DNA of 32,794 bases from Bacteroidota bacterium (GTDB taxonomy: Bacteria > Bacteroidota > Bacteroidia > Flavobacteriales > Flavobacteriaceae): assembly GCA_024280145.1 (NCBI GenBank), contig JAJRQR010000025.1:1-32794 (forward strand). The letters are read 5' to 3'. Every line of letters begins with the position of its first letter. Within the stretch, counting starts at the first letter, position 1. Of this stretch, positions 24,837-27,456 are shown in pieces. The translations under genes and the position numbers were made by a program. The notes beneath the pieces are model-generated. The model did not search any database and had not been told where the DNA came from. It was given only the letters and a program-made list of their open reading frames with translations.

Positions 24837-25673
24837 TTACAAATCTCTCCTTTTTAAAAGTAAATAAGACCAATAAATAAAGAGGGTAGTCCAAACTAAA
24901 ACTATAATTACGTTTAAAGGTTGTACACTATAATCTTTATCGAAAGCTTCTCCTAATTGACTTGCGGCAGATTGAACTGCGCCTAGCCTAGAGAAAGGTT
25001 CTTTTATTAAATTTGACATAGAGGATAAAGGAAAAAACTGACTAATAGACTCGGCAATATCAGTATCTTTAAATAGTTTCCACTTTAATAAAGCATAAAT
25101 AATTCCTTCAGCAATACTCCAAATTGCTAAAAACCCCAAAGCAAAAGCTGATCGTTTTACCAATACTCCTAAAAATAAACAGAAGGAAAAGAAGCCTAAT
25201 AGTTTTACGAAATAGGCAAAGAGGTATTCTGTGTCACTAAAAATGATTCCAATTTCGTTATAATCTTAAAATCGTAATCCTAATAATAAAGACACCGCAA
25301 AAACAAATAGGGTTGAAACTGTAGCAAATAAAACTACTGTTAAAAATTTTGATAACACAAATTCCTTTTTGCTTAAACCATCAATAAGGTTTTGTTTTAG
25401 AGTTCGGTTACTGTATTCGTTAGCCATCATAGAAACTATGACAATTGCTAAAAATATTTTAAGTAATGCTGCTATATAGGTGTTAAAATGCCAGATAAAT
25501 GGAAAGTTAAAAATTCCTTGATCAGCTATTCTAAAATGAATTTCGCCAAAATCAAACTCAATGGAGGCAATTAAAGCTATAAAAGTGATTAATATAAAGT
25601 AGACAATCGAAATTACTTTCGCCGATTTGTTGTACTTTAATTTATGGAGTTCTATGGTAAGTAATCGTAACAT
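24837..25673 (-). pseudogene. ABC-2 type transporter permease interrupted by an in-frame TAA
   Basis: From the ATG at 25671-25673 (MLRLLTIELHKLKYNKSAKV) one frame runs for 279 codons to the stop at 24837, broken only by TAA at 25266-25268 (codon 136). Before it lie three membrane segments (about 21-39, 57-83, 113-133) and LLLGLRF. Immediately after it the same frame continues DYNEIGIIFSDTEYLFAYFV and supplies three more segments and a basic end (LLLKRRDL), giving a normal six-helix ABC-2 permease of about 278 residues. There is no frameshift. The gene follows its intact ATPase partner by 17 bases. The options are recent inactivation, a sequencing error, suppression of the stop, or two half-permeases; re-initiation is weak because the next in-frame start (TTG at 25163) would lose TM4. 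Confidence 0.9.
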
Positions 25674-25690: not shown

Positions 25691-26587
25691 TTAAGCAGTT
25701 TTGGTTAGTTCTAAAAATTGTTCTTCTAGGCTTTCTTTTCGGTGAACTAAATAGGAAAGGTTAATTCCTTTCTCGAACAATAGCTTGTTTAATCCAGCAC
25801 TATCTAATGGGTCTTTTAAATAAGCGATAAGTTTCCCATCTTCTTGTTTAATGTTTCCAAAACTATCGTGTGTTTCCAAAACATTTTTTAATTTTTCTAA
25901 ATCATCGGATTGTAAAGTGAAAAAACCATGACTTGCAATCATATCTTCTACTCTACCAGAATACAAACTTTTTCCTTTTCGAAGTATCACCACATGGGTA
26001 CATACTTTTTCAACTTCATCTAATAAATGGGAAGCTAATAATATGGTAGTACCTTCTGAAGCAATTTGTTCAATAATTTCTCTAATTTGGTGAATTCCTT
26101 GAGGATCTAATCCATTAGTTGGTTCATCTAAAATTAATATTTCAGGATCGTTAAGAAGGGCAGATGCAATGGCAAGACGTTGTTTCATTCCTAAAGAAAA
26201 GGTTTTGAACTTGTCATCTTTTCGATCTAATAATCCAACAACATCAAGTTTTTCTGAAACTTTATCTTTGGAAACTCCTTTAATCTTACAAACTAAATTC
26301 AGGTTTTGAGCAGCCGTCATATATGGGTAAAAGTTTGGTCGTTCTATAATAGCACCAACTTTTTTTAATGCTTGGTGAGTACTTCCAGTGCCATCAAACC
26401 AATGAAAATTTCCATTGGTTTTGTTTACTACGTTTAATACGATTCCTAAAGTAGTTGATTTTCCGCTTCCGTTAGGCCCTAATATACCGTAAACATTTCC
26501 TTTTTCTATGGTTACTGAAAGATTATTAACCGCAGTTAGTGAGCCGTATTTTTTAGTGAGATTGTTGAGTGTGAGAATTTCTTGCAC
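25691..26587 (-). CDS. ABC transporter ATP-binding protein of an ABC-2 exporter, GTG start
   Basis: This is a 298-residue ATPase of the CcmA/NatA type. Residues about 5-210 are the nucleotide-binding domain: Walker A GPNGSGKST near 38-46, signature FSLGMKQRLAIA, Walker B EILILDEPTNGLDPQG and switch His in LLASHLLDEVE. Residues about 215-298 are the C-terminal extension common in ABC-2 exporter ATPases. All catalytic motifs look intact, unlike its partner permease, which carries an in-frame stop 17 bases downstream. The start is GTG at 26585-26587: no in-frame ATG exists upstream before a stop, and the frame begins right at the ATPase fold (MQEILTLNNLTKKYG). A TACTTTTA element lies at 26611-26618. 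The substrate is unknown. Confidence 0.93.
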   Translation of the reverse strand: MQEILTLNNLTKKYGSLTAVNNLSVTIEKGNVYGILGPNGSGKSTTLGIVLNVVNKTNGNFHWFDGTGSTHQALKKVGAIIERPNFYPYMTAAQNLNLVCKIKGVSKDKVSEKLDVVGLLDRKDDKFKTFSLGMKQRLAIASALLNDPEILILDEPTNGLDPQGIHQIREIIEQIASEGTTILLASHLLDEVEKVCTHVVILRKGKSLYSGRVEDMIASHGFFTLQSDDLEKLKNVLETHDSFGNIKQEDGKLIAYLKDPLDSAGLNKLLFEKGINLSYLVHRKESLEEQFLELTKTA

Positions 26588-26712: not shown

Positions 26713-27456
26713 TTACTCAAAAGTTAATTTCTTCTTTCTAAGTTCAAAATTCTGACCTAAATACACTTTTCGTACCATTTCATCATTCGCTAAATCTTCC
26801 GGAATTCCGTGTTTTAAAATACTGCCTTCAAACATTAAATAAGTACGGTCTGTAATTGCCAAAGTCTCTTGTACATTATGGTCGGTGATTAGAATGCCAA
26901 TATTTTTGGTAACTAATTTTGCTACGATTCGTTGAATATCTTCTACCGCAACTGGATCTACACCTGCAAAAGGTTCGTCTAATAAAATAAAATGAGGATC
27001 GGTTGCTAAGGCACGAGCAATTTCAGTTCTTCTGCGTTCTCCACCACTTAATAAATCGCCTCTGTTTTTTCGGATGTGCCCCAAGCCAAATTCTTCAATT
27101 AACGATTCCATTTTATCGTGTTGTTCTTTTTTTGAAAGCTTCGTTAATTGTAAAACACTTAATATGTTATCTTCTACACTGAGTTTTCTGAAAACTGAGG
27201 CTTCTTGTGCTAAGTACCCAATTCCGTGTTGTGCACGTTTGTACATCGGGAATTTGGTGATTTCTTGATTGTCCAGATAAATATTTCCTCCGTTAGGTTT
27301 TATCAAACCAACAATCATATAAAATGAAGTAGTGTTTCCAGCCCCATTAGGTCCCAAAAGCCCAACAATTTCCCCTTGATTTACTTCCACAGTAATTCCT
27401 TTAACTACTTTTCTTCCTTTATAGGATTTTACAAGATTTTCGGCTTTTAATTTCAT
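26713..27456 (-). CDS. lptB: LPS export ABC ATPase LptB, with the Walker A lysine replaced by Asn
   Basis: This 247-residue cytoplasmic ATPase powers the Lpt bridge that moves lipopolysaccharide to the outer membrane. The family signs are GQEIV-type N-terminus, [18 protein letters not shown] (Q-loop and coupling region), [16 protein letters not shown] (signature, 136-150), Walker [14 protein letters not shown] with Glu161, switch His193 in TDHNVQETL, and the C-terminal [18 protein letters not shown]. Length and start are normal. The Walker A motif reads [11 protein letters not shown]: residue 41, invariably Lys in functional ABC ATPases, is Asn (AAC at 27334-27336). Everything else is intact. 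It lies 45 bases after tatC on the same strand, probably in one envelope operon with kdsD and tatC. LptFG/LptC are not in the window. Confidence 0.95.

Follow-up and report, generated by a model that had tools for sequence, protein, structure and literature searches.

A lone in-frame stop codon in an ABC-2 permease gene of a draft Flavobacteriaceae genome is probably a consensus error

Results

The window analysed here is a stretch of 32,794 nucleotides, contig C20 of the draft assembly G000 (2.78 Mb in 210 contigs, 87% complete, 2.4% contamination). The assembly appears to be of metagenomic origin, the closest records by permease protein being Flavobacteriaceae assemblies, many of them marked as MAGs. 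The window contains neighbouring genes for an ABC-2 type permease, an ABC transporter ATPase and the LPS export ATPase LptB (Table 1).

Table 1. Features of the permease locus, and other broken genes found in the sampled part of the source assembly
Feature	Position	Strand	Remarks
ABC-2 type permease frame	24837..25673	-	278 codons, one internal TAA at codon 136
Permease, first part	25269..25673	-	135 codons, TM1-TM3
Lone in-frame TAA	25266..25268	-	TCN serine in 108/108 homologous loci readable at this column
Permease, second part	24840..25265	-	142 codons, TM4-TM6, dN/dS well below 1
ABC transporter ATPase	25691..26587	-	open, PF00005; presumed permease partner
LptB, LPS export ATPase	26713..27456	-	TIGR04406, 363 bits (cut-off 240)
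LptB codon 41	27334..27336	-	Asn; Walker A Lys in 10/10 genus-mates
Frameshifted genes, source assembly			Der/EngA, PBP2/MrdA, SulP permease, oligopeptide-type ABC ATPase, OxyR-like regulator, 2 proteins without NCBIfam match
Stop-bearing genes, source assembly			HDIG-domain protein, OlsH-like, BamH, MeaB, rRNA-methyltransferase-like, MnmC2-like, 1 weakly named, and the permease

We read the whole 278-codon permease frame from position 25673 to its terminal stop at 24839-24837. The initial annotation had described a single TAA (25268-25266 in the direction of reading) between open stretches of 135 and 142 codons without a frameshift, and the reading agreed, with no second lesion or change of frame in the 278 codons. 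The sequence is also that of a membrane protein on both sides of the stop, as had been suggested. The first half matches the ABC-2 permease family PF12730 of Pfam with 38.4 bits against a gathering cut-off of 27, and the second half matches PF12679 with 21.5 bits, which, taken alone, is below the curated cut-off of 27.2. In the hydropathy profile of the window's own frame, residue 136 is preceded by three hydrophobic segments and followed by three more that do not overlap. The frame is not a product of chance, because a genus-mate protein aligned over its entire length with 88% identity and because, where the stop stands, 108 of 109 homologous loci encode serine by a TCN codon. We found no second copy of the permease in the assembly at E values up to 1. 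The adjoining gene, for an ABC ATPase as expected beside an ABC-2 permease, is open, as initially stated. Residue 173 of this ATPase is Glu, with Lys in 13 of 13 genus-mates.

We modelled the intact homologue of locus L082 with AlphaFold2 (mean pLDDT 67.5). The model has long helices at residues 16-37, 66-86, 102-135, 148-172, 175-200 and 252-275 and, together with the hydropathy of the window's frame, predicts six transmembrane helices for the full permease. The third helix of the model ends at residue 135, and the TAA therefore sits directly after TM3, in agreement with the earlier placement of the stop between TM3 and TM4. At E of 0.001 or below, Foldseek with this moderate-confidence model returned five matches (best E 3e-4; query TM score 0.56-0.64). 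The nearest solved folds, NosY (7o0y, 7o0z) and PmtCD (9q1y), share the six-helix permease fold, here encoded beside an ABC ATPase gene, but identity across the five matches is only 13-18%, and no PDB relative was detected at the sequence level at E up to 1.

Comparison with relatives, a check proposed initially, showed the stop in no relative readable at its column. The stop column is TCA in 58, TCC in 21, TCT in 20 and TCG in 9 of 108 homologous loci, all encoding serine; the 109 loci in total come from two sets, of 29 and 80, in which some genomes occur twice and are counted twice, and the remaining locus, L083, begins at a contig edge just past the column and is unreadable there. Within the genus, a permease match was obtained in 17 of 19 genomes. 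Besides the source assembly, 15 of 16 matches are without an internal stop (two of these 15 are cut by contig ends); the other, in G018, is plainly decayed, with many stops (contig C7:65775-66611). In G015 and G017, each 81% complete, no permease match was found. Across the family, 345 of 397 genomes match the permease, and among the 150 matches listed, counted by hand, the row of the source assembly was the only one with an internal stop.

The part of the gene after the stop does not look like that of an ageing pseudogene. In six comparisons with genus-mates, dN/dS (NG86) was 0.04-0.09 after the stop and 0.04-0.09 before it, these estimates being rough since dS is large. Against G011, the values were 0.063/1.183 before and 0.028/0.784 after the stop; against G007 alone, the ratio was higher after it (0.110/1.257, about 0.09) than before it (0.074/1.727, about 0.04). 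The second half thus shows no clear relaxation, and neither the further decay nor the relaxed constraint that would mark a true pseudogene was found, in line with the lack of decay noted initially.

A second anomaly, absent from the initial annotation, lies in LptB, whose gene is immediately upstream of that for the ATPase, 1.4 kb from the TAA. Of 202 columns that are invariant in at least eight genus-mates, the window's LptB departs at one, and this one is the Walker A lysine (within 2.1 kb of the TAA). The assembly has no close LptB paralogue, the next best match being 31% identical. The Asn at codon 41 is probably a second consensus error.

We then asked how often genes are broken elsewhere in the assembly. 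The sample comprised 60 stretches of the source assembly (771 kb with the window) and, from the genus-mate G001, 62 stretches (1.24 Mb), and is thus part of each genome rather than the whole. We aligned the open reading frames of each genome to the DNA of its counterpart and kept alignments of at least 60% identity. Stops were counted only if they lay at least 30 residues past the start of the alignment and at least 15 before its end; neighbouring colinear alignments in different frames were scored as a frameshift. This stricter survey took the place of an earlier, looser one, in which leader and antisense frames had been included. In the source assembly we found 8 lone internal stops and 7 frameshifts at 190 places in 66,789 codons, as compared with 1 stop and 3 shifts at 192 places in 65,570 codons in the reverse comparison, with G001, itself a draft, carrying these four lesions. 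In 11 other genus-mates (of 18), searched with the same G001 queries in the smaller region of stretches around the permease locus, there were no lesions at 163 places in 51,363 codons. The excess was significant by Fisher's test with codons treated as independent (p = 0.019 against G001 and 0.0003 against the 11 genus-mates), and at 75% identity or more it was 9 lesions in 41,802 codons versus 1 in 41,488. Stops dropped near alignment ends numbered 2 in the source assembly and 8 in G001, and counting them would give 17 versus 12; most of the 8 occur in the first 16 residues, a region of uncertain gene starts. The window contributed 15 places and 5,133 codons, with the permease TAA as its sole lesion. 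Within the 771 kb sample, the assembly therefore has the excess of lesions over relatives expected of spurious pseudogenes. For six of its 15 lesions the gene is less conserved (60-72% identity) and could be a true pseudogene.

The broken genes (Table 1) were named from their intact G001 copies, several of the names being based on matches that fall short of the curated cut-off. Two of the genes, those for Der and PBP2, are essential in most bacteria studied. The Der/EngA GTPase gene (contig C33:1944-3241; L251:1944-3241) has a -1 frameshift, and no intact second Der was found in the assembly, the only match over the family cut-off being the broken copy. PBP2/MrdA is likewise frameshifted, and no copy in the assembly reaches the family cut-off; another large PBP2 match, in an open frame and below the cut-off, is probably FtsI. 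The frameshifts in Der and PBP2 and the loss of the Walker A lysine in LptB thus place lesions in normally essential single-copy genes, another property of spurious pseudogenes.

All seven frameshifts in the sample are -1. By eye, five of them fall at A or T runs that are five to eight bases long and a sixth at a three-base run; the seventh is at no clear run. Among the eight stops, six belong to the G:C to T:A class, for which codon usage predicts a share of 29% (P about 0.009, with small n), an excess that could reflect either damaged sample DNA or a real mutational bias. A corresponding excess among private changes in the window was looked for and rejected: the source assembly has 18 such changes (rate 0.0058), within the range of nine genus-mates (0-0.0083). 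Nor are radical private substitutions generally in excess there: the source assembly has them at 6 in 2,910 columns of the window, including the stop, compared with 6 in 2,899 for G005 and 7 in 2,925 for G007, several genus-mates having fewer.

Discussion

The TAA is present in the assembled sequence and absent from every relative readable at its column, in an assembly with an excess of gene-breaking single-base lesions. Most likely it is a consensus error of the draft genome, introduced in assembly or base calling; the stop is real in the sequence but most likely not in the organism. We judge it an error because single-base defects break other genes of the same assembly, some of them normally essential. 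A cell is unlikely to live with Der, PBP2 and LptB all broken, so that the simplest account is one of scattered consensus errors, and we infer from the comparisons that the TAA belongs to this class. Low read coverage may lie behind the error at the TAA. The organism would then probably encode an ordinary full-length six-helix permease, which probably works with the adjoining ATPase. The initial annotation had left three options open: a base-call error is favoured by the lesion excess, a very recent change is possible, and suppression or a function for the half-protein found no support.

The main alternative is that the TAA is real: a nonsense mutation of very recent date, or an allele carried by a minority of the sampled population, would have inactivated the permease and left a non-working three-helix remnant, in a gene whose decay is just starting. 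A lone stop without other decay fits a young event, and loss of the permease in this genus is not unthinkable, since the G018 homologue is decayed and two other genus-mates are without a match; the G:C to T:A share of the stops is possibly a real mutational bias. However, the lesions in Der, PBP2 and LptB in the same assembly are not expected in a living cell, and among the 150 family matches listed the internal stop is confined to this assembly. A mutator lineage was considered and rejected: the search covered MutS1 and MutY, and both are present, open and over their cut-offs, so that there is no obvious mutator in the assembly. We regard a recent real mutation as unlikely, yet leave it an appreciable minority share of the probability, because radical substitutions are not in excess, six of the lesions may be real, G001 has four lesions of its own, and the stops are skewed towards G:C to T:A.

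That the TAA is real and tolerated, being either read through or separating three-helix halves that come together as a split ABC exporter permease, is very improbable; neither readthrough nor a functioning half-permease has any support. Bypass of the stop by a suppressor tRNA, readthrough or codon reassignment, giving a full-length permease, would agree with dN/dS well below 1 past the stop, but such constraint is equally to be expected of an error or of a very young stop. Homologues have serine at the column rather than a conserved stop, and a stop-reading anticodon is absent from the 28 tRNA genes found, a set with gaps (for example, no tRNA-Trp was seen) from a genome about 87% complete; we consider bypass highly improbable. 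A permease split into two separate subunits, with the second half restarted internally, is the least credible of these readings. The predicted inter-helix loop is a place where a split could be tolerated, and a TTG-started frame spans the last 108 codons of the permease. This TTG, however, is residue 171, and starting there would lose nearly all of TM4; moreover, no homologue is split at this position in the 108 readable loci or in the 149 other family matches listed. A literature search for flavobacterial ABC-2 permeases of half size and with premature stops gave no match.

A consensus error has precedents. Cooley and Wright 2024 (PMC11017572) implicate assembler, platform and coverage in putative pseudogenes across 126,564 public genomes. 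The spurious pseudogenes described there resemble those of the source assembly in their internal stops and frameshifts in conserved genes and in their elevated count, but that study reassembled genomes from reads, whereas the error class of our assembly is assigned by comparison alone. In long reads, according to the Kastor report (PMC12007338), deletion errors concentrate at homopolymers and fragment genes. The -1 shifts here, seven of seven and five of them at A/T runs, are alike in being single-base deletions at homopolymers. Unlike those deletions, however, the lesions here include nonsense substitutions (8) about equal in number to the shifts (7).

The lesion rate in the sample is high enough to account for the permease TAA, which carries little biological weight. 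It does call for caution: before a clean lone stop in a conserved gene of a draft genome is interpreted, the assembly-wide rate of frame-breaking lesions should be considered, and apparent losses of other genes in this assembly merit equal doubt.

Two further observations concern MutY and MutS. MutY gave a near-whole match at C178:4636-5406 and a partial match at a contig end, C130:17-469, and the two perhaps reflect a mixture of strains in the assembly. In addition, a MutS-family match at C108:15791-16729 (L288), covering positions 506-816 of the mutS1 model and below its cut-off, contains one in-frame TAA.
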